38,817 nucleotides of DNA from an uncultured Myxococcales bacterium (GTDB taxonomy: Bacteria; Myxococcota_A; UBA9042). A program made the translations under genes and the position numbers. Positions 3,769 to 31,598 of this stretch are shown in pieces (within the stretch, counting starts at the first letter, position 1; every line of letters begins with the position of its first letter). The notes beneath the pieces were generated by a model. The model was not told the origin of the DNA and made no database searches. It saw nothing but the letters and a program-made list of their open reading frames with translations. The stretch is from NCBI GenBank assembly GCA_937910235.1, contig CALENB010000429.1, positions 1-38,817 on the forward strand, read 5' to 3'.

Positions 3769-6102
3769 CTACTTGATCTTCTTGGCCTTCGCGACGAGGG
3801 CCTTGGGCTGCCCCGGCGTACCGATGAAGTCCTTCACGTAGCGCTTCTTCTTCGCCGACCAGCTCCCCGTGGCCGGGATGCCAGCCAGGCCGTCGAGCGC
3901 CGCTTCGCGCACCTTCATGTCCGGGTCGGCGAACCACAGCGCCAAGACCTCCAGGGCCTCCGGCAGGTTGCTCTTGGCCAGCACCGCGATCGCGGAGAGC
4001 TTCACGCCGGTGCTCTTGTCGAAGCTCGCCTGGCGCAGCGCGTCCATGTCGCCGGCGACCGTGGCGTCAGCGAGCGCCTGAATGCAGACCAGCCGCACCG
4101 CCGAGTCGCGCGTCTCCATGCCCTTGCGGAACTTCATACGCAGCGCCTGCGAGTTTTCAGCGTTGCGCAGCGCGAGTAGCGCGCCGTAGACTGCGCGTTT
4201 GATCAGCGGATCTGGGTAGTTCACGAGTCGCATCAAGGGACCAAAGGCCTCGGCGTCCTTGCGCAGCGCGATGCCGTCGATCGCGGCGACGCGGACCTTC
4301 TTCTCGGGATCGCGCATCATCTCCATCAACAGCTTGCCTGCGCCCTCAAAGCGCCCTGAAGCGCGACCCACGGCGTAAGCCACCCGCATGCGGATGCTAG
4401 CGTCAGGGTCCTTGGCGAGCTTGGCGAGGTCCTGCGCGATGCCGTCGTCACGAATGTCCGACAAGGCGTACACAGCGGCGCGTTTGATGGTGGCGTCCGA
4501 GTCCTTGAGCGCGTCCATCAGCAGCTGCACGATCGACGCGTTCGGCGCCGATCCCTGCGAGAAACCGGCCAACGAGCGGATCGCCATCTGGCGAATCGTC
4601 AGGTTGCTGCTCTTCACGAGGCGTTTGACTTGGCTGAGGCTGAGCGTCTTCAAGATCGTCTCCGCCGCCTTCATCATGTACTCCTCGTCGCGACGACGCG
4701 CCTGCGCAGCATCTGCGAGCGGGGTGATAGCGCGCTCGTCTTTGATGAGCCCCAGCGCCTCAGCTGCCGCCTGCCGAACCATCGCCGCGGTGTGTTTGAG
4801 CGCGGTGATGAGCAGCGGCGTCGCCGACTTTGAACCGTTCTTGCCGTAGGTCTGCGCGGCGAAGATGGCGCCCTCCGGGGTGCCTTCGCTGATGAGGAAC
4901 TTCAGGCTCTCCTCACGAGCGACGGCGCTGCCGTGATTCACCAGCACGGTGGCGATCTGCTCTTTCATGTCGGCGGCGAGGTTATCGCTCGGCATCGCCG
5001 TGTGCAGCAGCTCCCACTGCTTCATGCCGACCAACCCCTTCAGGGCGGCGTCGCGCACGCCGCTATCCCGGTGCGTCAGCGCGCTCACGAGGGCTGGCGC
5101 GGCGATCTTGGCCTGGCTGCTTTTGGTGAGCGTATCGACGGCCGCCAGCGCCTCCGCGGTGGTGCCGGAGCGCAGCTTCTCGGCCTGCAGCAGATCGTTG
5201 TACTTGCTGACGCCGGCTTTGCTCAGCGCCTTCACCGCGCGCAGCTTGAGGTCTGTGTCGCTGTCGTTCTCGACGATCTTCTCCAGGCCCGACATCACCG
5301 CCGGGCTGCCCTTCACACCGGCGGCGATGCAGGCGTCGAGCGCAGAGGAGCGGACGTTCAGGTCTTTGTCGGCGAGCGCGGGCACCAGCATGTCGATCTT
5401 GAGGTTGTAGGCTTTGCGCACCGCCGCTTTGGACACGCCGGCGATGACAGCGAGCTTGGCGCGCTTGCTCTTGCCGGTGACCGCGGTAGCCAGCATCTCG
5501 CGAAGTTTCACGCCGTTGAGCTTCTTAGCGCCCGTCGCGATGCCGCGTGCAGCGTCACGCGCTGACACCGGGGCGCCGTCGACGATCACCCAGGCGCGCG
5601 GCGGCACTTGCTCACGGCGCGCGAAGGAGAGCAGATCAAAGGGCGAGAGCAACAACACATGGGCGCCATACGTCAACTGACTGAGCTTGACGTCGCCCTG
5701 GATGAACGGCGGCGCGCTGATGTCGGTGACCCCCATCGAGGCGAGCGTCCAGAACACCTCGGCGACAACGAGATCGGCGTCGGCGCCATTGCCGATGACC
5801 AGGGTGGCCTTGGTGGCCGAATCGATGCGTAGGCTGCTGTTGCCGTACGCCTCGCTGTTGCGCGCTTTGAGCGCGGAGAATGCGCGTGCGGGCCGCAGGG
5901 AGACGTTGGAGTTGGCGAGGCCTGGCTCGTCAATCGGGACGATCAGCTTCACTGGGACGCCGCTGACATCGACGGATTGAACGACGTAGAGCAACGCCTT
6001 CGCGTTGTCGGCTTGCGCGGACTGCGGGGCGAGGGTCAGCAGGATTCCGCAAACGACGACGGCTGCGATCGCGGTCGCGCGGAGGGGGCGGCTCAGGTTC
6101 AT
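3769..6102 (-). CDS. Secreted HEAT-repeat protein
   Basis: A 777-residue protein. MNLSRPLRATAIAAVVVCGILLTLAPQSAQAD is a clear Sec signal peptide with probable cleavage after AQA. Residues ~33-190 form a separate N-terminal domain of unknown family. From about 195 to the end the chain is built from ~30-residue helical repeats with the HEAT/PBS-lyase pattern, e.g. DSDATIKRAAVYALSDI, DPDASIRMRVAYAVG, DPEKKVRVAAIDGIA and DPDMKVREAALDGLA. Such solenoids are scaffolds for protein binding; no catalytic motif is seen, so a periplasmic scaffold is the best inference. The start is supported by GGAGG eight bases before the ATG at 6102; a longer open frame to 6207 lacks a signal peptide at its front. It is convergent with the lipoprotein gene, 27 bp apart. 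Confidence 0.88.
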   Translation of the reverse strand: MNLSRPLRATAIAAVVVCGILLTLAPQSAQADNAKALLYVVQSVDVSGVPVKLIVPIDEPGLANSNVSLRPARAFSALKARNSEAYGNSSLRIDSATKATLVIGNGADADLVVAEVFWTLASMGVTDISAPPFIQGDVKLSQLTYGAHVLLLSPFDLLSFARREQVPPRAWVIVDGAPVSARDAARGIATGAKKLNGVKLREMLATAVTGKSKRAKLAVIAGVSKAAVRKAYNLKIDMLVPALADKDLNVRSSALDACIAAGVKGSPAVMSGLEKIVENDSDTDLKLRAVKALSKAGVSKYNDLLQAEKLRSGTTAEALAAVDTLTKSSQAKIAAPALVSALTHRDSGVRDAALKGLVGMKQWELLHTAMPSDNLAADMKEQIATVLVNHGSAVAREESLKFLISEGTPEGAIFAAQTYGKNGSKSATPLLITALKHTAAMVRQAAAEALGLIKDERAITPLADAAQARRRDEEYMMKAAETILKTLSLSQVKRLVKSSNLTIRQMAIRSLAGFSQGSAPNASIVQLLMDALKDSDATIKRAAVYALSDIRDDGIAQDLAKLAKDPDASIRMRVAYAVGRASGRFEGAGKLLMEMMRDPEKKVRVAAIDGIALRKDAEAFGPLMRLVNYPDPLIKRAVYGALLALRNAENSQALRMKFRKGMETRDSAVRLVCIQALADATVAGDMDALRQASFDKSTGVKLSAIAVLAKSNLPEALEVLALWFADPDMKVREAALDGLAGIPATGSWSAKKKRYVKDFIGTPGQPKALVAKAKKIK

Positions 6103-6397
6103 GGGATCAACCTCCAGAAAGCTCGGTGGCGAGGGGCGCACAGACGACGTGGCCCAGGATTGGCTCACCGGCGGCGGGGTGATGGCACAAGTGACCGCCC
6201 CGATCAAGACTCATGACGGTACAGAAGGCGTGCGAGATCCAGATGATGGGCCTCCCGCCTTTGTCCAGAGCGGGTCAACACCTAACCCGCCCGCGGTCTG
6301 TGAACGCAACACCCCGGCTTATTCATTCGACGCAGCGCTTCACGCAGGGCGCAGCATACGAGGCTGCCGCCTCAGTGCCAACGGATCGACGTCAAAT

Positions 6398-7804
6398 CTA
6401 CCAGGCCCAGCGCGCGCCGATCCCGAAGGCTGCGTCGAGCCGCATCGCGTAGACGCCGGCATCGGCATGCCACGTGCGCTGCACATCACACCACGCGTGC
6501 CAGGGGCCTCGGCTCTGCCAGCGCGCCGCCGCGGCGGCGCTCTGCTGACCCACCCCCGGGCGCAAAGCCCAGGCCACGTGCGCCTGCACCCCAGCCCACA
6601 CCGGCGTGCGAAGCCGGGCGCTGGCCGTGTCCGCAGGACGATCGCCGCCGGTGCGGTGCCAGGTCTCCCACGTCCCGGCGAGCTGCCAGCCGGCCGGCGT
6701 GCTGCCGCGCGCTTGCACGAGGTGCCCCCACCGGCCCTCACCAGCGCGCGCCAGCCACGCGGCGGCCTTGGTGCGCCCCGCCGCGCCAAGCTGAGTACGC
6801 TCCAATTCATAAAATCCGTCGATCCAGCCGGGGCGGTAGCTGCCTTCGCTGCGTCGCGCCTCGTAGCGAATCCGCAGCTGCGCGGCCCGGCCACGCCACG
6901 CCCACCAGACCCCTGCGTGCAGCCCAGCGCCGCCGCCGCCGTCGATGCTGGCCACGTTGGCGTCGACGTACGGCACGAGGTGTTGATAGGCACCCAGCGC
7001 CACCGGCAGACCGACGTCGACGCCCGCCAAGACGAGCGGCGCGCTGGTCATTCGCGGCCGGCCCGCGGCGTCCGACTGCAGGCGACCGTCGGCGTTTCGG
7101 ATGGCGATGAGCGGCGCGTTGCGGTCGGCGACAGCGCTGATCGCGACAGTCAGGTTGGCGAGCGCGCCGCGTTTGGGCGCCATCGCGCGCCCGCGGCGCG
7201 TCTGCCGCCCGTACCCGGACCAGGGTCGCGCGAAGAGGCGGACGCCGACGAGATCGAAGCGGGTCACGTCGTCAGCGATGAGCTGCAGGCCGACCGCGCC
7301 GCGGTCGAGGTCAAGCCGGACCCCGGACTTGAAGTGATCGGGCAGCAGCGCTGAGCGATAGTCGCGAACGAGGCTGCCGTGGCCCAGCGTAGCGCCAGCC
7401 GTAGGCGCGATTCGCAGCGACAACGACGAGAGCCGACCGGGATCGACGGGCGGATGCCAGTCGAGTCGCGGCGCGAGGCGCAGCCATTCGCTGCGATCAT
7501 CCCAATCGCGCGCGCGCAACACCCCCGGCTCGCGGACCGAGACCCGCAGCGGCGCGCGCAGCGTCACGCCAAAGGCGCCCTCGCTGATCTGCAGACCGGC
7601 GTCGACCTCACTCCACACCCCGCCGTCAACCCGCGCGACGCCGGCGCCGCCGCGCACACGGATGTCAGCGGCCCATCCCGTCGCTGGTAACCACACGGCG
7701 CACAACAGGACGCAAAGACGGCCGCAAAACAGGGCGCAAAGTCGGGCGAAAAGACGGAGGCGAGGTCGGTCAAACGACCGTACCAGGGGCCGACCACACC
7801 TCAT
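6398..7804 (-). CDS. Putative outer-membrane beta-barrel protein
   Basis: A 468-residue protein of no family I recognise. It begins with an Arg-rich n-region and a hydrophobic, Cys-containing core (LFARLCALFCGRLCVLLCAVW) ending ATGWAADI, a plausible signal peptide. The mature part alternates polar and hydrophobic residues with many Trp, Tyr, Arg and Gly (e.g. LVQARGSTPAGWQLAGTWE) and ends in an aromatic residue, RWAW, as outer-membrane barrels often do. The ATG at 7804 overlaps the stop of the xerC-like gene by four bases (ATGA), so its translation is probably coupled to it. The function is unknown; barrel topology is an inference from composition and strand pattern. Confidence 0.6.
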   Translation of the reverse strand: MRCGRPLVRSFDRPRLRLFARLCALFCGRLCVLLCAVWLPATGWAADIRVRGGAGVARVDGGVWSEVDAGLQISEGAFGVTLRAPLRVSVREPGVLRARDWDDRSEWLRLAPRLDWHPPVDPGRLSSLSLRIAPTAGATLGHGSLVRDYRSALLPDHFKSGVRLDLDRGAVGLQLIADDVTRFDLVGVRLFARPWSGYGRQTRRGRAMAPKRGALANLTVAISAVADRNAPLIAIRNADGRLQSDAAGRPRMTSAPLVLAGVDVGLPVALGAYQHLVPYVDANVASIDGGGGAGLHAGVWWAWRGRAAQLRIRYEARRSEGSYRPGWIDGFYELERTQLGAAGRTKAAAWLARAGEGRWGHLVQARGSTPAGWQLAGTWETWHRTGGDRPADTASARLRTPVWAGVQAHVAWALRPGVGQQSAAAAARWQSRGPWHAWCDVQRTWHADAGVYAMRLDAAFGIGARWAW

Positions 7805-8835
7805 GGCGTGTCCTCGCCGCCCGGAGAGCGCCGCGCCACCTCGAGGTCGCTGAGTGGGGGCGCGGGCGCCGACGCGGCCAGCTGAGCGCGCGGGTGGGCG
7901 CCGTCGTAAGCGGCAGCGACGCCCGCGAACGAGGTGTGGGTGTAGCGTTGGGTTGTCGACAAGCGGGCGTGCCCGAGCAGCTCCTGGACCTCGCGGATGT
8001 CTGCCTTTCCGTCGAGCAGATGCGTGGCGTAGCTGTGCCGCAAGCCGTGTGGCGAGACGGTCTGGCGGAGCCCTGCACGCAGACAGCGCGCCTCCATCAT
8101 GCGACGCACCGAACGCGTCGACAGGCGGGTGCCGCGCCAATTGAGAAACAGCGCATCTGTCGGCTTCACGCCGCGCTTGGCGAGCACCGTGTCTCGGACA
8201 GCGAGCCAGCCGTTCAGCGCGGTTACAGCGTGGTCTCCGAACGGCACGATCCGTTGTTTTCGGCCCTTGCCGGTGACCCGCGCCACGCGCTCGTCGAGCT
8301 CGAGCTGCTGCAGATCGAGGCTCACGAGCTCGGCGACGCGCACGCCGGCGCTGTAGAGCAGCTCGACCATGGCGCTATTGCGGGCTTCCAGCGCGGGATC
8401 GGCCTCAGCCGTGACGTGGCGCAGCAAGAGCAGCATCTCGTCGACCGAGAGAAATCGGGGCAGCGTCTGGTCTTGCTTGGGCGTGCGCATCCCCTGCGCG
8501 GGGTCGACGGCGAGGTGGCCGTGGCGGCGCAGAAACAGAAAGAGCTGCCGCACCGCGGCGATCTTTCGGGCCATGGAGGCCGCGGCCAGGTGGCCATGCA
8601 GGCTCGCAGCCCAGCTGCGGAGCTGCGTCCGCGACGCCGCGTCGATCGAGGTGACGGCGTACGTCTCCGCTAGCCACAGCTCACAGTCGCGGATGTCGTT
8701 GAGATAGGCGCGCAGGGTGTGCGGGCTGACGTTGCGTTCCCACTTGAGGTGCTCGTGCCAGCGGGCGACCGCAGGCGAATCCTCCGGGGGGTCCGGCGGC
8801 GGCGAAGGATCAAGGTTCGGTGGGGAGTCGCGCAC
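7801..8835 (-). CDS. xerC: Tyrosine recombinase, XerC/XerD family
   Basis: A 344-residue site-specific tyrosine recombinase. XerC/D proteins resolve chromosome dimers at dif with FtsK. The N-terminal SAM-like core-binding domain runs from about 22 to 115 (WERNVSPHTLRAYLND). The catalytic domain follows with all active residues visible: Arg166 in YSAGVRVAEL, Lys190 in TGKGRKQRIVPF, His263 and Arg266 in HGLRHSYATHLL, His289 in LLGHARLSTT and the nucleophile Tyr298 in QRYTH. A Pro-rich 20-residue N-terminal tail and ~40-residue C-terminal tail exceed the usual ~300 residues. The start is GTG at 8835; the next possible start would cut the tail. No att sites, phage genes or transposon ends are nearby, so a housekeeping Xer role is more likely than an element integrase. 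I cannot separate XerC from XerD. Confidence 0.9.
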   Translation of the reverse strand: MRDSPPNLDPSPPPDPPEDSPAVARWHEHLKWERNVSPHTLRAYLNDIRDCELWLAETYAVTSIDAASRTQLRSWAASLHGHLAAASMARKIAAVRQLFLFLRRHGHLAVDPAQGMRTPKQDQTLPRFLSVDEMLLLLRHVTAEADPALEARNSAMVELLYSAGVRVAELVSLDLQQLELDERVARVTGKGRKQRIVPFGDHAVTALNGWLAVRDTVLAKRGVKPTDALFLNWRGTRLSTRSVRRMMEARCLRAGLRQTVSPHGLRHSYATHLLDGKADIREVQELLGHARLSTTQRYTHTSFAGVAAAYDGAHPRAQLAASAPAPPLSDLEVARRSPGGEDTP

Positions 8836-8884
8836 TGGATCAGGGTGCCGGTCGGGCGACCGCTGTCGAGTTTTCCCCCGCTGG

Positions 8885-10975
8885 CTAGGCCGACGTCAGG
8901 ACCAGGGCGGTGCCGGCGAACCGAGGATCCAGCTCTGCGGCTGGATCGAGGCCACCGAGTTCGGCGTCCAGTCGGTCGAGCGTGCGCGCCAGAAAGTTCT
9001 CGAGCGGGGCGACCTCGGCGTCGCTCAGGCCCGGATTCGCGAGCAAAGAGCGGCTCAGCGCGTCGCGTAGGCTTGGGTTGACGCGGCGCTGCCCGACGGG
9101 CCCGGTGAAGGCGTCGGTCAAGAATCGCTTCGCGGCGTCGGGCGGCAGCGCGGCGAGCCGTGGTTGACCCTCCAAGACGGTCCAGGCGATGGCGGTGGCC
9201 AGCAGGGACGTCAGCTCGAGCTCCTCGTCGACACCATCGGCCATCTCGAGTGACAGCCGCGCCACGGCGGCCTTCAGGTGGTGATCGCCGAGCCCCTCCA
9301 ACACGCCCACCGCGGCCTCGACACCGGCGAGCACCGCGCCGGCCTCGTCGATCTCGGCCCGGCGTTCAAAGGGGCGGAACTGTGGCAGCTGCGCCTCTTC
9401 GTCTTCGCCGTCGGCGAGACGGAGGCCGTCGAGATCTTGGGCGGCGCCGATTGGGCGCGGAATGGGACGCCCCGGCAGCGGCCTGCACAGCCCGGCCAGC
9501 AGCAGACCCAGCTCTGGTCCCGCGAGCTCCAGTCGGCCACCGAGCTGGCGACGCAGACGCAACGCACGGTGGTGCAACATCACCACCAAGCTGTGCCCGA
9601 CCGTGAACAGCTCGCCCAGCGGCATCAAGCGCAGCAGCGCCGCGCCGCGCTCAACGTCGTCGCGCGCGAGCCAGCTCAGTCCCATGTCCGCGGTCAGCAG
9701 GGCATGTCGCGACCAGCCTCTGAGCTCCTCGGTCTCCGATGGTCGTCGCGCCCGAGCTGCCTGCAGTCGGTAGGCCAACTGCACCATGGCGAGCTGCAGC
9801 CGCGCCGTCTCCTCGTCGCTGCAGAGCGCGACGGCTTGCGCGAGGAAGGGCGCGCGTCCCAGGCCATGCAGCGCGATGTCGGCCCGGGCCGCCAGGGCCT
9901 CCGGCACAAAGGGCAGCGCCTCACCGATCTCGGCGCGTTCACCGGCGAGCAGCGCGTCTGCCTGCGTCCGCGCCTCAGCGGGCGGCACGAAAGCGTAGAC
10001 GCCCATCGCCTCTTCGCGCGCGGGAAAACCGTGCGTGACGTTGCGCTTGTTGCGGGTCTCGTACAGGTCCTCCGCCATGGAGGTCGGCAGCTCCCAGCGC
10101 GTAGCGCGCAGAATGCGACGGCCACGCACCAGATCGATGCGGTAGACCGACTCCAAGATGATGCGAATCGGCGCCAGCGCGTCATCGTCCATTGGCACGC
10201 CCACGACCATGCAGCCGTCGGGCGAGATGAAGCTCTCCCAGTCTTCCGGCAGCAGCTCGTCGGCCTCTTCGGCGGTCTCGTAGACGCGGGCGGAAGCAGA
10301 GACGAACGTGCACAACAGCGCGTCTTCCTGCGAGGCGAGGAAGCGGTCGACGGTCTCCTGATTCGCGCTCACCGCGACGGCCAGCAGGTGGGCGAAACGT
10401 CGCCGGTCGAGCACATCGCCGTCCCACACGTCGAGATCGACCAAGGTCTGCATCTGCCGCGGCGAGGCGAGCGACATCAACGCAGCGCCGTCCGAAAGAC
10501 CGATATCCTTGAGCAAAAACGTGAATTCTTCGGCCGGAAGCGCCTGCAACGTGAGCGCTGGATCGGGCAGATCGAGCAAGAAGTCGAGCTTGTCGGTGCC
10601 ACTCATGCGGTGGAAATCGGGCGGCATCCGGCTGAGACCGAAGCCCTGCTCGCCCTGGGCCAGCAGCGGCGCCAGCGCGATGCCACGCTCGGTCGGGAAC
10701 TCTTCGTAGGGGTCGGGGGCGACATAGGTCATCCGCACGAGGTCGCCGATGCGCTCATACTGATCGACCCCGAGCCGCGCCGCGTCCAGCGTGTCCGCGC
10801 GGACGAGGTAGCCGGAGACACCGGTGACCAGCGGGATGTCGTCATCGCCGCCATCTTCGTCATCTGCGGTCGGCACGACGCTCGTCGGCATCACGGGCGC
10901 GAGCGCGGGGGTCGACGCACGCTGTGCGAGCGCCTGCTGCGCGAGACGGAACTGCTCTTCGGCTTTGGTTGTCAT
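8885..10975 (-). CDS. DUF6178 family protein
   Basis: A 696-residue, acidic, Leu/Ala-rich cytosolic protein without signal peptide or membrane segment. The region around residues 120-210 (SGTDKLDFLLDLPDPALTLQALPAEEFTFLLKDIG followed by LASPRQMQTLVDLDVWDGD) has the repeated Leu-Pro pattern I associate with the deltaproteobacterial DUF6178 family, whose function is unknown. The second half is predicted helical with no catalytic motif that I recognise. AGGAG nine bases before the ATG at 10975 supports this start over the in-frame upstream one at 11002. It is 49 bp upstream of the xerC-like gene on the same strand, so co-transcription is possible. Confidence 0.75.
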   Translation of the reverse strand: MTTKAEEQFRLAQQALAQRASTPALAPVMPTSVVPTADDEDGGDDDIPLVTGVSGYLVRADTLDAARLGVDQYERIGDLVRMTYVAPDPYEEFPTERGIALAPLLAQGEQGFGLSRMPPDFHRMSGTDKLDFLLDLPDPALTLQALPAEEFTFLLKDIGLSDGAALMSLASPRQMQTLVDLDVWDGDVLDRRRFAHLLAVAVSANQETVDRFLASQEDALLCTFVSASARVYETAEEADELLPEDWESFISPDGCMVVGVPMDDDALAPIRIILESVYRIDLVRGRRILRATRWELPTSMAEDLYETRNKRNVTHGFPAREEAMGVYAFVPPAEARTQADALLAGERAEIGEALPFVPEALAARADIALHGLGRAPFLAQAVALCSDEETARLQLAMVQLAYRLQAARARRPSETEELRGWSRHALLTADMGLSWLARDDVERGAALLRLMPLGELFTVGHSLVVMLHHRALRLRRQLGGRLELAGPELGLLLAGLCRPLPGRPIPRPIGAAQDLDGLRLADGEDEEAQLPQFRPFERRAEIDEAGAVLAGVEAAVGVLEGLGDHHLKAAVARLSLEMADGVDEELELTSLLATAIAWTVLEGQPRLAALPPDAAKRFLTDAFTGPVGQRRVNPSLRDALSRSLLANPGLSDAEVAPLENFLARTLDRLDAELGGLDPAAELDPRFAGTALVLTSA

Positions 10976-11077: not shown

Positions 11078-12121
11078 TTACGGCACCAGCGCATAGCGGC
11101 CTTGGCGATCGATCCAGGCGTCGCGACCGCCGATCACCACGTGGGCGAGGCCGTTATCGAAGCCAAAGGCGGCGTCAAATCGTGGCGGGATGGCCCACGT
11201 GCCGCGTTTGTCGAGGTAACCGCTGCGACCGGCCTCGCGTGCGACGGCGAGACCACCAGAGAAGTCGCCGACACGCTCAAATCGCGGCGGGATCACCAAG
11301 CGCCCGGCCGGATCGACCCAGCCCCAGCCCTTGGGGCTATGGACTGCGGCGAGCCCCTCCGAGAATCGCCGCGCGCCCTGCCACGCCGCCGGCACGGCGG
11401 TCTGCCCGGAGCGGTCGATGAATCCCCAGCGGCCGGCGATGAGGGCGGCGGCGCGACCTTCGTGGAAATCCCCGGCGTGCTCGAAGCAGGCCGGCATCGC
11501 GGGCGCGCCAGCGCGATCGACAAAACACATCTGTTGGCCGTTATCGACCCGCGCGCGGCCCTCGCTGAAGTGCCAGACGTCGTCCCAGGTCGGCTGAATG
11601 ACCCAGGCGCCCGTGGTGTCGACAAATCCCCATCTGCCGCGCTCGCTGGCTGGCGCGAGGCCCTCGGCGAAGCTGCGAAGGCTCGTGAAGCGCGGCGCGA
11701 TCTGAACTTCACCGTTCGTGTCGATGGCGGCGTAGCGTCCGTCGCGTGCGACCACCGCCAGCCCTTCTGAGAAGGCGTTGGAATCGTCCCAGGTCGGCGC
11801 GATCACCTCGCGGCCGGCGCTGTCGATGTAGCCCCAGAATCCGCCACGCCGAACGGCGGCGCGATTGTCGCTGAATGGGCCAGCGTCGTCGTAGCGCGCC
11901 GCGACGACAAGCTGACCCGCCGGCGAGGCAAACCCCCACAGGCCGCCGCGTCGCACGGCAATCAGGGGCGGCGGGGTGGATGTCGGAGTGGGGCTCGGCG
12001 TGGAAGTTGGGGTCGTCTGACCGGGAGGCATGTCGGGAGGTCTCGTCGGCATGCTGCTACACCCAAGCGCGCTGTGCGCCGCACCAGACAGCGCGACGAG
12101 CAGCGCCATGCGGCCGATCAA
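11078..12121 (-). CDS. WG-repeat lipoprotein, candidate partner of the upstream amidase
   Basis: A 347-residue predicted lipoprotein. MIGRMALLVALSGAAHSALGC gives lipobox SALGC (Cys21), then a Pro/Thr/Ser linker to about residue 50. The rest is a chain of WG repeats, each ~35 residues with the pattern GxWGF(I/V)D-x-x-G-x-x-V(I)-x-P-x-(F/W)-x-x-x-x-x-F-S-EGLA; about eight can be counted. WG repeats are thought to form beta-propeller-like binding folds. The start is TTG at 12121, directly after the TAG of the amidase gene; an ATG at 12109 is an alternative but loses the only basic residue of the n-region. The zero-gap arrangement and periplasmic location make it a candidate immunity or binding partner of the amidase (inference, not shown). 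Confidence 0.82.
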   Translation of the reverse strand: MIGRMALLVALSGAAHSALGCSSMPTRPPDMPPGQTTPTSTPSPTPTSTPPPLIAVRRGGLWGFASPAGQLVVAARYDDAGPFSDNRAAVRRGGFWGYIDSAGREVIAPTWDDSNAFSEGLAVVARDGRYAAIDTNGEVQIAPRFTSLRSFAEGLAPASERGRWGFVDTTGAWVIQPTWDDVWHFSEGRARVDNGQQMCFVDRAGAPAMPACFEHAGDFHEGRAAALIAGRWGFIDRSGQTAVPAAWQGARRFSEGLAAVHSPKGWGWVDPAGRLVIPPRFERVGDFSGGLAVAREAGRSGYLDKRGTWAIPPRFDAAFGFDNGLAHVVIGGRDAWIDRQGRYALVP

Positions 12122-13123
12122 CTACATGTACCAGACCTTGAGCTTCTGCGACGGGTACCACTCGTTGGCGTCAGAGAGCTGCTCGCCGTTGAAGATATCG
12201 ACGTGGCCGGTGCCGCTGTAGCCGAAGATCTTGTCGAAGGCGACGATCCCTTTGCGGCCCTTGACCTCCTCGCGCGCCTCGTCAGAGAAGCCCTTCGAGA
12301 AAGCGTTGGAGTCCGAGTAGCGACCGCGCTTTGGCCACTCGGCGTGGGCCTTGCCGCCCCAGTGCTCAACGTAGGTCCACATCTCCTTCGCGGAGAGGAT
12401 GTAGTACCAGCCGGTCTTGCGACTGTACGGCAGGCGGCGCGGGTCGAGACCGGCGGCCTTGGCCTTGTCGCGCGTCAGCTTGAAGTTGCCGCCGAGCTTA
12501 TTGAACATGACCGACATGCGGATCGCGCAGGTGTTGCTGTACTGGTGGGGATCCCAGCCCTGCTCTTCCTGGAGGTCGTCGCTCGCGGTGTTCTGACTGG
12601 AGTCGCTCTGGTAGTTGTGCGGGTGCGCGTCCCACATCTCCTCGAACTCCTTGGGAATCTGGCTTCCAGACGCCGCTGGGCCACCCGCGTTGTTCGAGCT
12701 GTTCTGCGGCGACGGGGCGGGCGGAGCGACGGTCTTGCCGCTGTCCATCAAACCGAGCGTACCCTTGCCGATGACGCCGTCGTTGCCGAGGCCTGCGCCG
12801 GTCTGCCACGCCTTGACGGCGATGGTGGTCATGGCGCCCCAGCTGCCGTCCGCGCCGGCGCTGCCGAGGTTGAAGCCCTGCTTGACCAGGAACTCCTGCA
12901 CCGCGCGGACCGCTGGCCCGCGTGCGCCGTGGCGCAGCACCGCGCCGCCGGAGGCGACCTGCTCGAGCACGTGATCACCGGAGAACAGCGGGTTCTGAAG
13001 CGCGCCGCCGCCGGGTGCCTGCGGCCGCTGAGGCTGCTGTGCCGGTGTCTGCGCGTCGTTCTGTTGATCGCTACTTGGCTGCCCCGGACGCTGCCCCGGA
13101 CGTTGCTGCTGACCCCAAACCAT
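12122..13123 (-). CDS. Peptidoglycan-binding domain fused to Tae4-like amidase
   Basis: A 333-residue protein. Residues 1-40 are Gln/Pro-rich with no signal peptide. Residues ~48-127 match a PG_binding_1 domain (LRHGARGPAVRAVQEFLVKQG, then AMTTIAVKAWQ and GVIGKGTL). After a linker, residues ~155-333 resemble the Tae4 family of type VI secretion amidases, NlpC/P60-like enzymes that cut the peptide stems of peptidoglycan: nucleophile motif NTCAIRMSVMFN (Cys199), WYYILSAKEM, and KGIVAFD...GHVDIFNG with His307 and Asp309. Absence of a Sec signal fits delivery by a contractile apparatus or lysis rather than export. The ATG at 13123 has a GGGGG run upstream. The lipoprotein gene follows with no gap. 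No T6SS gene is in the window; an autolysin-like role is the alternative. Confidence 0.8.
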   Translation of the reverse strand: MVWGQQQRPGQRPGQPSSDQQNDAQTPAQQPQRPQAPGGGALQNPLFSGDHVLEQVASGGAVLRHGARGPAVRAVQEFLVKQGFNLGSAGADGSWGAMTTIAVKAWQTGAGLGNDGVIGKGTLGLMDSGKTVAPPAPSPQNSSNNAGGPAASGSQIPKEFEEMWDAHPHNYQSDSSQNTASDDLQEEQGWDPHQYSNTCAIRMSVMFNKLGGNFKLTRDKAKAAGLDPRRLPYSRKTGWYYILSAKEMWTYVEHWGGKAHAEWPKRGRYSDSNAFSKGFSDEAREEVKGRKGIVAFDKIFGYSGTGHVDIFNGEQLSDANEWYPSQKLKVWYM

Positions 13124-25389: not shown

Positions 25390-26811
25390 CTACTTCTCGA
25401 GGCCGGGCATCGGGCCTCTGAGCACGACCCGGTCACCGCGCTGGCCCTGAACGGCGTTCAGACCGACCACGTCCGTCGTCAGCCCCATCGTCTGCGCGAC
25501 GCTGACCAGGAAGCGTTGATGCGGCAGCCCGCTCAGCTTCGTGAACCCGCCAGCAGCAAACTTCGCCGGCACCATCATCTCGATCGGCGTCTCGTGCGGC
25601 CGGTAGACGTAGCGCCCCGTGTTGAGATGCCAGCCGCCGCCGATGAGCACAGGGCAATAGTGCCAGTAGCCATGCCACGGATCGGCCAGCTCCGAACCCC
25701 AAGAGATGAGCGTGTGGTCCATGATCGAGCCACCCTGTGGGTCGGGCAGGTCGCTCAGCACCTGCACCAACCGCGCGACCTGGCCGGCGTGGCGGTGGAT
25801 GTAGTCCGTCATGGCGGCGTGTTTGGGGGCGCTGTCGTAGATGCTGTGGGCGATCCCCTTGTGAACGTTGTCACTGAGGGCAGCTGCGCCGAACTCCGAG
25901 GTCTTCATCTCGCCGAGCGACAGCGTGGCCACACGGGTGACGTCGCAGGAGAACGCCGCGCCGATCAGGTCGGTCATCGCATCGAACCGCTCGTCGTACG
26001 TGCTGGTCTCAGCCGGGGCAGCCGTGGCCGCGTCACACTTCAGCGCCGCCATGCTGGAGATGCGGTTGCTCAGGCGGTGCACGAGGTCGTAGTGGCTCTC
26101 GAGCCGGTGGCGCTGGGCGGTGTCGAGCTTGGGCGCCAGCGCTGACAGCTCGTGCCACGCGAAGTTCAAGGCGTCGCGATGACCCTGGATCAATGGGCTG
26201 GGAGCGGCCGATGGCCCGAAGATCCGCTGCCACACCTTGACCGGATCGTCCTCCAGCGGCAGCCGGGCGCCCTTCTGGTCGTAGCTCACCGGCCGACCGG
26301 GCTCACCGCTGTCGTTGACCGACATCTCCAGCGAAGGCAGCCGATCGATACGACCGATGTGATGGGCGACCAGCTGATCGATGGACAGGCTCGTGGCCTG
26401 CGCTTCGGCCGCGCTGAAGTCGACGTTGCCACCCGTCCAGGCATGTACCCAGCCGGTGTCGTGGCGGTTGCCGTCCATGTCGAGCTCGGCGGTCGCCAGC
26501 GACAGGCCGTCGATGGGCAGGATGCGCTGGCGGTGGTCGAAGAGCGGCGCGAGGGGTTTGCTCCACTGGTTTTTGGGCAGGGTGGTCAGGTCCACCTGCC
26601 ATGGCTGGGTCACATCAAGACCTTGGGGCCGGAGCTTCCAGCTGTCGTACGTCCAGCCATGACAGTGCGAGAGCACGATGAGACGACGAACCGCCCCGGC
26701 CCGATCGCTGGCGTGTGCGGCCACCAAACGAGCGGTGCCAAGGCCCGCGCCGAGACCGAGCGCGCCGCCTGAGAAGCCGAGAATCCGGAGGAAATCGCGT
26801 CGATTCATCAT
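25390..26811 (-). CDS. DUF1552 family protein, Tat-exported
   Basis: A 473-residue protein. MMNRRDFLRILGFSGGALGLGAGLG is a twin-arginine signal. The mature part matches the DUF1552 family (IVLSHCHGWTYDSWKLRP, PIDGLSLATAELDMDGNRHDTGW, LPSLEMSVNDSGEPGRPVSYDQKG, MDHTLISWGSELADPWHGYWHYCPVLIGGG), a periplasmic family of unknown biochemistry, distantly like DUF1501/sulfatase-type folds. It is nearly always encoded beside DUF1592-type cytochrome genes, as here. The first ATG overlaps the stop of that gene by four bases (ATGA); the second Met, three bases on, is an equal alternative. The tight coupling supports a shared complex. Confidence 0.9.
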   Translation of the reverse strand: MMNRRDFLRILGFSGGALGLGAGLGTARLVAAHASDRAGAVRRLIVLSHCHGWTYDSWKLRPQGLDVTQPWQVDLTTLPKNQWSKPLAPLFDHRQRILPIDGLSLATAELDMDGNRHDTGWVHAWTGGNVDFSAAEAQATSLSIDQLVAHHIGRIDRLPSLEMSVNDSGEPGRPVSYDQKGARLPLEDDPVKVWQRIFGPSAAPSPLIQGHRDALNFAWHELSALAPKLDTAQRHRLESHYDLVHRLSNRISSMAALKCDAATAAPAETSTYDERFDAMTDLIGAAFSCDVTRVATLSLGEMKTSEFGAAALSDNVHKGIAHSIYDSAPKHAAMTDYIHRHAGQVARLVQVLSDLPDPQGGSIMDHTLISWGSELADPWHGYWHYCPVLIGGGWHLNTGRYVYRPHETPIEMMVPAKFAAGGFTKLSGLPHQRFLVSVAQTMGLTTDVVGLNAVQGQRGDRVVLRGPMPGLEK

Positions 26812-28910
26812 GGCGCTGCCCCCCCGGCCGCGCCCGCGCTGGGCAGCTTGCGGTAGCGAAACAGCTCGGTGCCGGTGATGGCGACGACCAGCTCGATGAC
26901 CCGATCGTCGCCACGAAACGTCTTCTGCAGCGCCAGCAGGGTGGCGTCATCGTCGGACACTTCGACACCGGCGGCGTAGCGCAGGTGCTGCCGCACGTAG
27001 CAGTTCTGCACACGCGGGCTCTTCGCCATCTTCTGCGCCAGCTCGACGGCGTCCTTGAACACGAGCGCCGGCTCGCCGGGCAGCTTCAGCACACCCGAGG
27101 CGTCGACGTCCTTGCCGCCGTCCTTGCTGCGCCAATGCCCAAACGAGTCGTAGTGCTCAAAGGCGAAGCCGGCCATGTTGAGGCCTAGGTGGTCGTGGCA
27201 GCCGCTGCACGCCACCGGTTTGGTGGCGGCGACCGTGCGCTCGCGGTTGGTGCTCTCGTCCGTAGGGGCGTCGGCCGGGGTCGCCGCCTCGGAGCCCAAC
27301 GGCGGCGGGTTGAAGTGCACGCAGGCGAGGCGCTCGAGCAGGCGCTTACCTCGCTTGATCGGCGAGGGATGCACCGCGTGTGCGCCCAGAGCCAGCACCG
27401 ATGGCAGCGTGAAGACGCCGGCGCGCTGGCGCTTGGGGAAGGTCGCCGGGTGGAGCGTGAAGTTGGTGTTGGACGTCACCGCCGCGACGCCGCTGACCGA
27501 CGCCTGCACGGCGTTGGCCGGATCGAGGTTGACAACCTGCGCGTCGATGACGCAGCCGGTGCCCTTGCCGCCGGTCTTGCCGCCGGGGAAGTTGACGCTG
27601 TCGCAAGTGCCGACGCCGTACACCGGCGCTGTGTACTGCGACACGTAGCCGCGCTCGCTGGTGAGCAAGGCGGTGAGGGTGCCCGGATTGGCGCCGGTGG
27701 TGCCGAACAGCGCGTCTTTGACGAACAGCGCCGTCTCCACCGACAGGGAGTGGCGGAGCGGGTTCATCAGCGCGGGCCACTCGCCGTCGCCGGTGGTGTC
27801 CAGCGGTGGCAGGGGCGCGATGCCGAACAGCGGCCCGTAAATCCGGCGCGCTGGCGAGACGCGGTGCAGCTGGTTGGTGCCGAGCCACTGGTGGTGGAAG
27901 TGCACCAGGGCGGCCTGCGCGCGGGGATCGGCTAGGAGGCGGCGGGCCTGGGCCTCGATCTGGGCCTGGGTGCGCAGCTCGCCCTTGGCGGCGGCGGCGA
28001 ACAGCGCGCTGTCGGGCATGGAGTTCCAGAGGTAGTACGACAAGCGCGACGCCATCTCCCAATCGCTCAGCGGCAGGGCGGTGCCGCCGCCAGCGGCCTT
28101 GATCACGCCGTTTTTGCGCGCCACGTCGCTGCGTGACGCGTCACCGCGCTCGATGCGAAAGAGGAAGCCTGGCGCCTGCAGGATGGCCGAGGCGGCGAGC
28201 GCGACCGCCTGCTCGGGAGTCCCCAGCAGCTTCATGGCGTCCCACAGGCCGGTGATGCGGTCGCCCTCTGCCACGGTGAGCGGTCGACGCCAGGCGCGCT
28301 GGGCGAAACGTAGCAGGCTCTGATGGGCGCAGGCGTCGCGCGCGGCGGCGGCCGACGTCGCCCAGGTCTTGCCGTCACATACAAAAAAGACCGGCGAAAC
28401 CAGCACAAAAGACCCGTAGTGGCGGGCCGCCTTCTGCAGCTGCTCGACGCTGTACGACGACGGCACCTGCCCTTTGGCCATGCCCTCAAAACCGTCGACG
28501 CCTGCCTCGGCGGGGAACGTATACGGCCAGGGGGCGGGCACAACAGCGGCGCTGCCGAAGATGCCGCCAGCGGCGCCAAGGGGCGCCGCGACCCCAATCT
28601 GCGGCATGGTGGGCCAGTCTTTGACGTCGGCCGGCAGCACCAGCAGGTCGCGCACGGTGTTGTTGAACTGCGTCGGCGTGAGCGCGATGAGCGGCGACTC
28701 GGGGGCCGTCCGCACGGTCTTGACGGCCCGGGTGTCCTCGGCGCAGCCGACGCTGAACGCGGTCGTGGCGACGAGGGCGATTAGGACCGTGACCCTCGGC
28801 GCAGTGACCCTCGGCGCAGTGACCCTCAGCGCAGCGTGACGGCGCCAGCGCTGCGGCGCTTTCGACCGCGGCGGCGCGGCGGGGCCGACGGCGAGTTGTC
28901 TAACGATCAT
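26808..28910 (-). CDS. DUF1587/1595/1592/1588/1585 c-type haem lipoprotein
   Basis: A 700-residue exported protein with the domain order of the Planctomycetes/Myxococcota surface cytochromes: DUF1587 (LTPTQFNNTVRDLL, from ~77), DUF1595 (RFAQRAWRRPLTVAEGDRI), DUF1592 (LSDWEMASRLSYYLWNSMPD), DUF1588 (QRAGVFTLPSVLALGAHAVHPSPIKRG) and DUF1585. The DUF1588 end has a CSGCH haem c site (568-572) followed by GFAFEHYDSFGHWR. A lipobox-like VGC (Cys56) lies behind an unusually long basic n-region that carries a tandem repeat (RVTAPRVTAPRVT). The ATG at 28910 overlaps the upstream gene by 11 bases; no later ATG, GTG or TTG precedes the hydrophobic core. Probable role: periplasmic or surface electron transfer (inference). 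Confidence 0.9.
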   Translation of the reverse strand: MIVRQLAVGPAAPPRSKAPQRWRRHAALRVTAPRVTAPRVTVLIALVATTAFSVGCAEDTRAVKTVRTAPESPLIALTPTQFNNTVRDLLVLPADVKDWPTMPQIGVAAPLGAAGGIFGSAAVVPAPWPYTFPAEAGVDGFEGMAKGQVPSSYSVEQLQKAARHYGSFVLVSPVFFVCDGKTWATSAAAARDACAHQSLLRFAQRAWRRPLTVAEGDRITGLWDAMKLLGTPEQAVALAASAILQAPGFLFRIERGDASRSDVARKNGVIKAAGGGTALPLSDWEMASRLSYYLWNSMPDSALFAAAAKGELRTQAQIEAQARRLLADPRAQAALVHFHHQWLGTNQLHRVSPARRIYGPLFGIAPLPPLDTTGDGEWPALMNPLRHSLSVETALFVKDALFGTTGANPGTLTALLTSERGYVSQYTAPVYGVGTCDSVNFPGGKTGGKGTGCVIDAQVVNLDPANAVQASVSGVAAVTSNTNFTLHPATFPKRQRAGVFTLPSVLALGAHAVHPSPIKRGKRLLERLACVHFNPPPLGSEAATPADAPTDESTNRERTVAATKPVACSGCHDHLGLNMAGFAFEHYDSFGHWRSKDGGKDVDASGVLKLPGEPALVFKDAVELAQKMAKSPRVQNCYVRQHLRYAAGVEVSDDDATLLALQKTFRGDDRVIELVVAITGTELFRYRKLPSAGAAGGAAP
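28789..28833 (-). repeat. 15-bp in-frame tandem repeat, 3 copies, in a signal sequence
   Basis: The unit GTGACCCTCGGCGCA (plus-strand reading) occurs at 28789-28803 and 28804-28818, with a third copy carrying one change at 28819-28833. On the coding strand it encodes RVTAP repeats just before the hydrophobic core of the haem lipoprotein signal peptide. Confidence 0.9.
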
Positions 28911-29361
28911 CTTCCGCCGACGGGGTCGGCGCGGTGACCTGGACGGACGGCACGCTCGGCAACGGTCGCTCGATCGGGCAACCGACCTCAAATAGCCAGC
29001 TGGTCATAGGGGTGCCCGCGCAGTTCGGTGTGACCACGACGTCGACGCTGGTCGACTCGCCAGGTCCAAAGTTCAAGGCCATCTCGCGGCTCTCGCCGAC
29101 GCAACCGCTGTTGAACAACGATTTGCCCTCGTAGAACACCTCGATCTGATCGTGGGCGTTGCGGGTCTCATACCGGAAGTCAAAGGTGCCGGACGTCGCG
29201 CCCATCTCAACCGACGTCACGGGCGGGACGGTGGCGCCGCCCGTGCTGGCGCCCGCGCCGCAAGTCGTGACGAGATCGGCGTCGCAGCCGCCCAGGGCAA
29301 GCGCCGTCGTGAGAGAGATCGCGACGACCACAGCGAACGCGGCGAGGGGTTGGCGGCTCAT
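28900..29361 (-). CDS. Small lipoprotein of unknown family
   Basis: A 153-residue predicted lipoprotein: MSRQPLAAFAVVVAISLTTALALGGC, lipobox LGGC (Cys26). The mature chain has a beta-sandwich look (SGTFDFRYETRNAHDQIEVFYEG, SVDVVVTPNCAGTPMTSWLFEVGCP) with cysteines that could pair, similar in style to PPC/CUB-like accessory domains; no family is certain. AAGGAG eight bases before the ATG at 29361 supports the start. It overlaps the haem lipoprotein gene by 11 bp and lies 105 bp downstream of the CotH gene, so it is part of the same minus-strand unit. Confidence 0.75.
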   Translation of the reverse strand: MSRQPLAAFAVVVAISLTTALALGGCDADLVTTCGAGASTGGATVPPVTSVEMGATSGTFDFRYETRNAHDQIEVFYEGKSLFNSGCVGESREMALNFGPGESTSVDVVVTPNCAGTPMTSWLFEVGCPIERPLPSVPSVQVTAPTPSAEDDR

Positions 29362-29466: not shown

Positions 29467-30888
29467 CTACCAAGCGAGGGCGAGCGCGGTGAGCAGCGTG
29501 AGCCCGCCTTGGGCGCCCGGCAGCCCGCCACCAGGGAGCGCCATGCAGCCGGCCTCCGCTGCCGCCCCGGTCGGCATCCCGGCCGCTAATGACGCCTCCA
29601 GTCGGGCTCTGCGCTTGGTGACCCAGGCGCGCAGCGTGGTGATCTCGGCGTCGTACGACGGGTCGTCTTGGGCCTGGTGAACCTGCGCGGCGAACCGTTC
29701 TACCTGCGCCAAGATCGCGTCGGGATCCCACACGTCGCGCAGCAGACGCGTGATCTCAGCCTGGAGCAGCGCCGCCACGGCTGGGAGGCGCGACAGGCGT
29801 CGTGGCAACGATGAGAAGGCAAACAAGCGCAGGTCGACCGCCCCGCCGTCGTCGTTGAAGACGTTGTCGGTGCCCCATGGCACAAAGACGGCGCGATGGC
29901 TGTCGGTGGGATCGAAGTAGACAAAGAAGTTGTTGCGCATGCTGGTGAAGCCGTCGGTGTGATGAATGATCACCTCGAGGGCCCAGAAGCGCACAAACCG
30001 GTCCAAGTTCAGCACCGGCTGCAGCGCCGTCAGCAGCTGCGAATCGGGCACCTGGAGCGCGTCGACCAGCTTCTGTAAGGGGGCGCCGTGGCGGTCGGTG
30101 TCACCCGTCTTCGCCTCCCAGCGGCCCAGTTTTCCGGCCTGAAAGCCCGCGCTGTGCTCGATAGTGAAGTCCGCCAACGTGCCTTCGTAGAGCGCGCCGC
30201 TGCTATCTCCAAACGCGCGCTTGAGGAAGCGTTTTTTCACCGCTTCGACGTGGGTGTAGGCCCCCAGAGATTCGCCATTGAGCATCACCGTCGCGAGGTT
30301 ACAGCGCGGCGCCGGGTAGTCGGCGGCGGTGAACAGGGCGTAGGCGAGGCACGTGCGCATGCGGGTGGGGTCTTGGTTGTTGTTGTTGAGGGTGACGCGC
30401 TCCGTCTGGCCGAGCAGCTGGGCGGCCTTGATGTGGTCGGTCTTGAGCTTCAGCGACGGCTTGAACAACCCCTGGCCCATCACCGAGCCCAGAAAACCCT
30501 TCTTGCGCACACCGACGCGCTGCAGGCCCACGCCGTCGATCTCGACGTCGGTCTCGTACCAGTTGAAGCGGGACGGAAAGGCGTCGATGCAGCTGTCGGT
30601 GAACCGCGCGAAGAGCTCGTCGATGACGACGTCGTTGGGCACGCCGAAGCGGTTCTCCACGCGCAGCGCTTCGAAACGCGGCGCGGCCATCTGCAACTTT
30701 ACGCACAGCGGCCGGGCGGGATCGAAGGAGACGTCGGCGTTTGGGTCGATGCCGGCCTGCACATTGGGGGTGCACGGCAGGCCCGGCGGCGGCCGATCGT
30801 CGGCCGCGTCGCAGGCGGTCAGGCACAGCAGGCACAGCAGGCACAGCAGGCACAGCCGTGGCGAGGCGATGACGCACAGCTCCTTCAC
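29467..30888 (-). CDS. CotH kinase family lipoprotein
   Basis: A 473-residue predicted lipoprotein. The signal peptide core is LCLLCLLCLLCLTAC with lipobox LTAC; its Cys-Leu-Leu repeat is encoded by a 9-bp tandem repeat. The mature part matches the CotH kinase family, atypical secreted kinases first known from Bacillus spore coats: VGVRKKGFLGS and KPSLKLKTD (nucleotide/substrate region), LNNNNQDPTRMRTCLAYALF, GAYTHVEAVKKRFLKRAFG, LDRFVRFWALEVIIHHTDG and NFFVYFDPTDSHRAVFVPWGTDNVF with the catalytic and metal-binding Asp residues. The start is GTG at 30888, overlapping the upstream stop by four bases (GTGA); a GTG at 30891 is equally possible. Such proteins are common in lipoprotein gene clusters of Myxococcota. 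Confidence 0.88.
   Translation of the reverse strand: MKELCVIASPRLCLLCLLCLLCLTACDAADDRPPPGLPCTPNVQAGIDPNADVSFDPARPLCVKLQMAAPRFEALRVENRFGVPNDVVIDELFARFTDSCIDAFPSRFNWYETDVEIDGVGLQRVGVRKKGFLGSVMGQGLFKPSLKLKTDHIKAAQLLGQTERVTLNNNNQDPTRMRTCLAYALFTAADYPAPRCNLATVMLNGESLGAYTHVEAVKKRFLKRAFGDSSGALYEGTLADFTIEHSAGFQAGKLGRWEAKTGDTDRHGAPLQKLVDALQVPDSQLLTALQPVLNLDRFVRFWALEVIIHHTDGFTSMRNNFFVYFDPTDSHRAVFVPWGTDNVFNDDGGAVDLRLFAFSSLPRRLSRLPAVAALLQAEITRLLRDVWDPDAILAQVERFAAQVHQAQDDPSYDAEITTLRAWVTKRRARLEASLAAGMPTGAAAEAGCMALPGGGLPGAQGGLTLLTALALAW
30821..30856 (-). repeat. 9-bp in-frame tandem repeat, 4 copies, encoding a signal-peptide core
   Basis: Four copies of AGGCACAGC (plus-strand reading) run from 30821 to 30856. 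On the coding strand they encode the CLL repeats that form the hydrophobic core of the CotH-kinase lipoprotein signal peptide. Each unit adds three residues without changing frame. Confidence 0.92.
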
Positions 30889-31598
30889 CACCCAACCCCC
30901 ACGCTTGTGTTCAGGATGGGCTTGAGCCCACCTGCGTCGCCGCCGCTCGTCGCGATGCTGTCGTCGACGAGGAACTTCGAATAGTAGAGCCCGGTGCCCA
31001 TCTCAAGGACGAAGCCGCGCCAGCTCCACGTGTAGCCGACCTCCAAGCCTGTGCCGATGACCAGCCCGGACGCCAGGACTTTCTTCCAGCGGTTCCGGAC
31101 CCAGCCCCAGCCCCCAATCGCCATCGGAGAGAGGTACCAGCCGCGCAGCCCGGGCCGGGAGATCGAGATGCGCGGGCCGACCTTCACTCCGATCATTTCG
31201 TAGTCGAACAGGAAATGGGCGCGGCCGTAGGTGGTCACGACGGTGACGCCGACACGCTTGGTGAGGGCGTGGTGCACACGCAGGTTGATGAAGGTCGCAC
31301 CCTGCTGAAAGCCCGTAGGAATAAGCCCTACGATGGTTCCGACCACCGGGCCGATCGGGTTGAGGAGGAACGCGTCGCCGAGCTCCGAGCGCGTCGGTCG
31401 CGCCGTGGCGGGTGGCGGGGCCGGCGGTGGTGGGGGCAGCGCAGGCAGCTGCGCGCGCTGCGGCGCGGCGCGCTTTGGCAAGGCCATCGCGCCGCGTGGC
31501 GCCACCTGCTGCCCTAGCGTCAGCGTCGCGACGATCAGCAGCAGCCGAAGGGCGCGACGACGTTGGCGGGGCGGACTTGGACTGGACTGAGGTGTCAC
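30885..31598 (-). CDS. Putative outer-membrane protein, Pro-rich N-terminus
   Basis: A 237-residue protein in the form given. A basic segment and hydrophobic stretch (RRRALRLLLIVATLTLGQQVAPRGAMA) form the signal peptide, followed by a Pro/Ala linker (PALPPPPPAPPPA). The rest has barrel-like strands (VGVTVVTTYGRAHFLFDYE, GTGLEVGYTWSWRGFVLEMG) and ends in an aromatic residue, VGVGW. No family is recognised. The start is uncertain: GTG at 31598 keeps a sensible n-region, while GTG at 31664 adds 22 residues; neither has a clear ribosome binding site. Its stop overlaps the CotH gene start, making it the first gene of the surface-protein unit. Confidence 0.65.
   Translation of the reverse strand: MTPQSSPSPPRQRRRALRLLLIVATLTLGQQVAPRGAMALPKRAAPQRAQLPALPPPPPAPPPATARPTRSELGDAFLLNPIGPVVGTIVGLIPTGFQQGATFINLRVHHALTKRVGVTVVTTYGRAHFLFDYEMIGVKVGPRISISRPGLRGWYLSPMAIGGWGWVRNRWKKVLASGLVIGTGLEVGYTWSWRGFVLEMGTGLYYSKFLVDDSIATSGGDAGGLKPILNTSVGVGW

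Follow-up and report, generated by a model that had tools for sequence, protein, structure and literature searches.

How would a wall amidase that is made without a signal peptide reach a cell wall, and what does the WG-repeat protein encoded directly behind it do? These questions are raised by positions 11,078 to 13,123 of a 38,817-nucleotide stretch of DNA from an uncultured Myxococcales bacterium. The whole stretch, called the window here, makes up the entire contig C429 of a 7.1-Mb assembly with a completeness rating of 100%. The phage-tail-like particles of extracellular contractile injection systems (eCIS) are common among environmental bacteria, and few of their cargoes are known. The reading put forward here, to which we give a probability of roughly 55%, is that the amidase (P0001) is a wall-cutting enzyme packaged into eCIS particles and injected by them, with the WG-repeat propeller (P0002) as its cognate partner and most likely its inhibitor.

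Genomic setting

P0001 gives the only Tae4 match of the genome, and P0002 is its only WG_beta_rep gene. The gene context in the window is of a housekeeping kind (folE, DUF6178, and a tyrosine recombinase). A pair of DUF1552 and PSD/PSCyt proteins is encoded at 25390-28991 on the minus strand of the window, with a CotH kinase-like gene nearby at 29467-30891. A comparison with the PADLOC defence families gave no match. A phage origin was considered and rejected: phage endolysins matched the PG_binding part only, and the full protein had no relative in viral contigs or phage records. Homologues of any part of P0001 were found in 25 of 53 relatives, and homologues of its Tae4 part in 19 genomes. 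Alignment with the Tae4 part identified 28 carrier genomes among 379 of the phylum.

The amidase

12122-13123, minus strand: Tae4-domain amidase gene P0001, 333 aa, stop codon included; Pfam PG_binding_1 and Tae4 over cut-off
13004-13123, minus strand: disordered Q/P/G-rich leader of P0001, residues 1-40, a candidate packaging signal (pLDDT <50 at 1-39; hydropathy and disorder ranks)
12962-12988, minus strand: LFSGDHVLE motif, residues 46-54, between the leader and PG_binding_1
12746-12922, minus strand: PG_binding_1 domain (Pfam, 42.7 bits; Foldseek matches to the SleB N-terminal domain and others)
12146-12541, minus strand: Tae4 (PF14113) amidase domain (Pfam; Foldseek matches to Tae4 structures)
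12527-12529, minus strand: codon of catalytic Cys199 (NTCAIR), counterpart of Cys44 of Salmonella Tae4
12203-12205, minus strand: codon of catalytic His307 (GHVD), counterpart of His126 of Salmonella Tae4
12197-12199, minus strand: codon of Asp309, possible third catalytic residue
12170-12172, minus strand: codon of Asp318, with the spacing of Asp137 of Salmonella Tae4

The initial annotation had described P0001 as a signal-less protein combining a PG_binding_1 domain with a Tae4-like core, and this description was borne out. No signal peptide was found in P0001, and both domains exceeded their Pfam cut-offs, PG_binding_1 at residues 68 to 126 (42.7 bits, cut-off 23) and Tae4 at residues 195 to 324 (59.8 bits, cut-off 27). 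The start Met is common to aligned orthologues with 76 to 80% identity; the simple gene caller shortens some N-termini, placing the P0001 start at residue 52 for example, and full-length starts were taken from the orthologue alignment. In the AlphaFold model (mean pLDDT of 80.6), a disordered leader (residues 1 to 39) precedes the PG_binding domain, which is followed by a Tae4 fold. Its best PDB matches in Foldseek are Tae4 structures (6ijf_C, E value of 2.8e-8, TM score on target of 0.72), and the fold matched is the NlpC/P60-like one of solved Tae4 proteins.

Cys199, His307, and Asp309, the core residues named in the initial annotation, are invariant in an alignment of 19 homologues. The triad of Salmonella Tae4 is completed by Asp137, which lies 11 residues past His126 (PMC3695027). 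The residue of P0001 at this His-Asp spacing is Asp318, which is replaced by Ala in three homologues (L049, L050, and L062). The assignment therefore holds for Cys199 and His307, with Asp309 and Asp318 as the candidate third residues, and P0001 is a Tae4-family amidase by all sequence and fold tests except that of the third catalytic residue.

Compared with the N-termini of 186 genes, the leader of P0001 falls within the lowest 0.5% for hydropathy and the top 2.2% for disorder-promoting residues. The LFSGDHVLE motif that follows it is kept across the PG_binding-Tae4 family. In three more distant homologues (the amidases of L154, L153, and L152), an LLSGxxxLDGxAE-like motif precedes a shorter version of PG_binding, a layout that resembles the LFSGDHVLE arrangement of P0001.

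The WG-repeat partner

11078-12121, minus strand: WG-repeat partner gene P0002, 347 aa from TTG, stop codon included; seven WG_beta_rep stretches
12059-12121, minus strand: lipoprotein-type signal sequence with lipobox SALGC, residues 1-21 of P0002
11087-11962, minus strand: WG-repeat region, predicted beta-propeller (AlphaFold, Foldseek)

Both open reading frames were confirmed on the minus strand where the initial annotation had placed them, as was their immediate succession: the TAG of P0001 has its last base at 12122, and a TTG at 12121 is the next start in frame. The P0002 leader, MIGRMALLVALSGAAHSALGC, fits the general lipobox pattern (SALGC); its positive charge depends on the TTG start, and an ATG lies 12 nt downstream. 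The seven WG_beta_rep stretches together score 249 bits (Pfam cut-off, 25.6). WG_beta_rep is the only Pfam family matched by P0002, and no protein of the Tai4 family adjoins P0001. The AlphaFold model of P0002 (mean pLDDT of 88.0) is made of all-beta repeats and resembles the propellers of BamB and eIF2A in Foldseek; a search by sequence for solved structures of the WG family found none. Beta-propellers are typical binding scaffolds, and an immunity role for the WG protein is plausible.

The periplasmic lipoprotein proposed in the initial annotation applies only to the copy in the window and those most closely related to it. A lipobox signal is present in the window copy and in L049, and in L048 the leader is hydrophobic and its lipobox weak. 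In the other 8 of 11 WG partners, no secretion signal was recognised in the longest possible reading frame, so that a purely periplasmic immunity, as for Tai4, is not general.

Conservation of the pair

In 11 loci, the gene directly downstream of the amidase gene, in the same orientation, is a WG gene (the window, L048, L049, L050, L054, L055, L056, L059, L060, L061, and L062). The initial annotation would have doubted the pair if homologues of the amidase regularly occurred without the WG gene. The WG gene accompanies the amidase in 10 of the 14 PG_binding-Tae4 loci that are resolved; the 4 that lack it (L052, L053, L057, and L058) all have resolved downstream sequence, and L051 lies at a contig end and is outside this count. 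The amidase-WG pair is thus real and strong, and it is not obligatory. The absence of a WG gene from these 4 of 14 loci and of a signal peptide from 8 of 11 WG proteins is awkward for periplasmic immunity.

The 11 paired loci represent about seven gene contexts. The folE context of the window recurs only in L048 and L049, L059, L060, and L061 share one other context, and the remaining paired loci differ. The number of contexts indicates that the two genes move, or are retained, together. The Tae4 domain evolves more slowly than the WG partner (mean distances of 0.37 and 0.60, respectively), and the two sets of distances are correlated (Mantel r of 0.67, p of 0.001), a correlation that is inflated by shared ancestry and could be explained by it alone.

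Two further sets of candidate pairs were rejected. In G009, a WG gene on contig C227 was considered as the partner of a contig-end amidase on C521; its WG repeats are generic, and C521 carries no WG start. Stray WG homologues in L113, L114, and L111 were considered as partners of other cargo, and their neighbours have no obvious cargo features. In one genome (G029), a protein with LysM, PG_binding, and M15 peptidase domains and a signal-less disordered leader is encoded about 7 kb from the Tae4/WG pair (L062:1194-2483, plus strand); it is possibly a further wall-cutting cargo.

Delivery of the amidase

The membership of the domain in the Tae4 family suggests a type VI effector with its immunity protein, the comparison made in the initial annotation, and PG_binding_1 is known in type VI effectors (PMC10673891). 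VipB/TssC, however, was not found in the genome of the window (G000), nor was TssC in 27 of the 28 genomes carrying the Tae4 subfamily, a set made up of every relative that has the family plus 8 of the 9 additional carriers. Type VI delivery is therefore refuted for this genome unless TssC lies in an assembly gap, for which an assembly rated 100% complete leaves little room, and as an account of the pair it is hardly credible. The candidate injector is instead the eCIS. An eCIS-type sheath and/or Pvc16_N was found in 27 of the 28 carriers, the exception being a genome (G002) that is 67% complete. In the genome of the window, contig C176 carries two sheath genes, a gp19 tube gene, and genes for CIS_tube-LysM, gp25, and Baseplate_J, and Pvc16_N is on C122. 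The remark in the initial annotation that the pair is far from any secretion genes is correct for the window, where no eCIS gene was found among the proteins searched; the genome as a whole does have an eCIS cluster, on contigs other than that of the amidase-WG pair, and this lack of linkage counts against the eCIS reading.

Co-occurrence of the amidase with eCIS genes is not significant among the 53 relatives (sheath, p of 0.07; Pvc16_N, p of 0.20) because eCIS is also common in relatives without the amidase, and it is not used here as proof. The strongest evidence is the fusion of the Tae4 domain behind eCIS_core (PF13699/DUF4157), detected by Pfam in G026, G037, G082, G106, G120, and G139 and by sequence in G025 and G287, a total of eight genomes. 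eCIS_core is a near-specific eCIS marker that often heads eCIS toxins (PMC8213781), and 36% of known eCIS-associated toxins (EATs) carry it in the protein (PMC11297309). A tree built from 29 amidase domains groups the eCIS_core proteins of G082 and G106 with the PG_binding members of G016, G018, and G021 (99/99 support), apart from the other eCIS_core members. This nesting indicates that PG_binding_1 and eCIS_core are modules that exchange on one amidase domain.

Among the window proteins searched, eCIS_core itself is absent from P0001 and from the genes within two places of it, an absence that does not exclude an EAT, and no eCIS gene lies within about ten genes. Since P0001 is neither beside an eCIS operon nor fused to eCIS_core, the window copy is not claimed outright as an eCIS-associated toxin; judged by the sequences of its orthologues, it probably works like one, and P0001 is most likely an eCIS cargo rather than a type VI effector. 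The PG_binding_1 domain speaks against this explanation to the extent that type VI effectors and ordinary wall enzymes can carry it too.

The N-terminal region of P0001 has a counterpart in the same genome. On contig C307, P0003 carries the LFSGDHVLE motif within a leader and PG_binding module 57% identical to those of P0001, and differs at its C-terminus; the gene for P0005, an eCIS_core-calpain protein, lies two genes away in the same orientation. The two genes occupy 4546-6351 and 7256-9502 on the minus strand (L066, G000:C307) and form a candidate second eCIS cargo locus of the genome. P0003 has two PG_binding_1 stretches after its leader and a C-terminus without a Pfam match, in which SGHG and FDGC motifs recall clan CD peptidases. 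Disorder and low hydropathy, as in the leader of P0001, are reported for the N-terminal signals of eCIS cargo (PMC11297309). There is a precedent for wall-binding domains acting in loading: the LysM module helped a type VI effector bind VgrG (PMC10673891), and by analogy the PG_binding module of P0001 may have such a role. In the proposed mechanism, P0001 would be packaged in the cytoplasm into eCIS particles of its own species via the disordered leader and the LFSGDHVLE/PG_binding module. The particles would then inject it into other bacteria, where the wall would be cut, at the stem peptide by homology to Tae4.

The enzyme might instead be a self-lysin that opens the producer's own wall for eCIS release or programmed lysis, with the WG protein restraining it until then. 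eCIS release requires lysis, and lysis-contributing cargo has been proposed (PMC8213781); a cytoplasmic enzyme with a wall-binding module is endolysin-like, and its WG partner is often cytoplasmic. This is nevertheless improbable, given that no lysis cassette was recognised among the window proteins searched, that eCIS_core fusions are typical of injected toxins, and that the leader is also found on the unrelated protein P0003. Still less probable is an ordinary hydrolase for wall remodelling or predation that leaves by another secretion or release route and has the WG gene as a chance neighbour. The housekeeping setting in the window and the frequency of PG_binding_1 with NlpC/P60-like architectures among wall enzymes would fit such a hydrolase, whereas the missing signal peptide, the eCIS_core fusions of its orthologues, and the retention of the pair in about seven contexts do not.

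A second partner family and the role of the WG protein

Six loci, in five genomes of the eCIS_core lineage, have behind the amidase gene a member of a family of about 155 to 240 aa (A5) that is unrelated to WG proteins:

L064, 10181-10774: family A5 copy
L065, 5657-6256: family A5 copy
L147, 6439-7020: family A5 copy
L149, 4583-5308: family A5 copy
L150, 1555-2022: family A5 copy
L151, 10538-11071: family A5 copy

Three copies were compared with Pfam, and none gave a match. Four of the six overlap the amidase stop by 4 nt, and signals were found in four of six, three of Sec type and one of lipoprotein type. Immunity genes typically show such swapping of small, unrelated partners behind a single toxin. 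Occupation of one slot by either A5 or a WG gene therefore favours an immunity slot and is suggestive of an inhibitor role, and A5 is a candidate immunity family. Several amidase loci have neither partner, which speaks against an inhibitor, but antibacterial eCIS toxins commonly go without immunity genes as well (PMC8213781). In G321, a Cys-rich protein with a signal-like start is encoded 31 nt behind a PG_binding-Tae4 gene (L152:2154-3230, plus strand) and is possibly a third partner type.

The WG protein could also serve the same eCIS amidase as a cytoplasmic loading chaperone or adaptor, or as a co-packaged scaffold, its lipoprotein form being a later change in the genus. The 8 of 11 WG partners without a signal peptide agree with a loader, as do the binding-scaffold character of propellers and the four amidase loci that manage without a WG gene, and immunity genes are usually absent from eCIS cargo (PMC8213781). 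The lipobox of the window copy and L049, however, would put a loading factor in the wrong compartment, and A5, the alternative occupant of the slot, mostly has signal peptides. A loading role is accordingly rather unlikely as a full account, and immunity is somewhat more likely as the role of the WG protein. As the preferred reading has it, the WG beta-propeller, encoded in the same operon, would be the cognate binding partner of the amidase and most likely its immunity protein. In the genus of the window, the lipoprotein would protect the periplasm, and in most relatives, a cytoplasmic WG protein would restrain the amidase before packaging.

A wider generalisation is offered only tentatively. 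WG propellers might form a new immunity class against a wall amidase delivered by eCIS, working inside the cytoplasm of some lineages and, as lipoproteins, in the periplasm of others; A5 would be a second new family replacing them at the locus, and PG_binding with an LFSGDHVLE-type leader would be an alternative cargo-loading module to eCIS_core.

Comparison with known systems

The initial annotation considered the pair unusual and unlike Tae4/Tai4, and this was upheld: a PG-binding-fused Tae4-like amidase is conserved with a WG-repeat gene. In the open-access papers searched, no description was found of Tae4 as an eCIS cargo or of WG repeats as a Tae4 partner. Antibacterial eCIS toxins mostly have no identified immunity genes, a stated puzzle (PMC8213781). 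A Tae4 amidase that is fused to eCIS_core in some species and has two alternative partners in one slot would provide a definite antibacterial cargo, along with two immunity candidates that can be put to the test. It also means that a Tae4 annotation need not imply a type VI system.

With Tae4/Tai4, P0001 has in common the Tae4 domain, its fold, and the catalytic Cys and His. Its family differs in carrying an N-terminal leader with PG_binding_1 or eCIS_core, in having no type VI system, and in its partner, a WG propeller or A5, neither of which matches a Pfam immunity family. P0002 resembles other WG_beta_rep proteins (PF14903) in its seven repeats over the cut-off and differs from them in its tie to a Tae4 amidase in 11 loci. 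In uncultured Myxococcota, the same phylum, eCIS genes are reported to be highly expressed and a possible use of the particles in predation has been proposed (PMC11937823); the consulted passages of that report name no amidase cargo, and P0001 would be a candidate. A further comparison for P0001 is with EATs carrying DUF4157/eCIS_core, such as EAT10, a peptidoglycan hydrolase (PMC8213781). Like them, P0001 is signal-less, has a disordered leader of low hydropathy, and belongs to a genome with eCIS, and its domain has orthologues joined to eCIS_core in eight genomes; unlike them, it has PG_binding_1 in place of eCIS_core and is not beside an eCIS operon.
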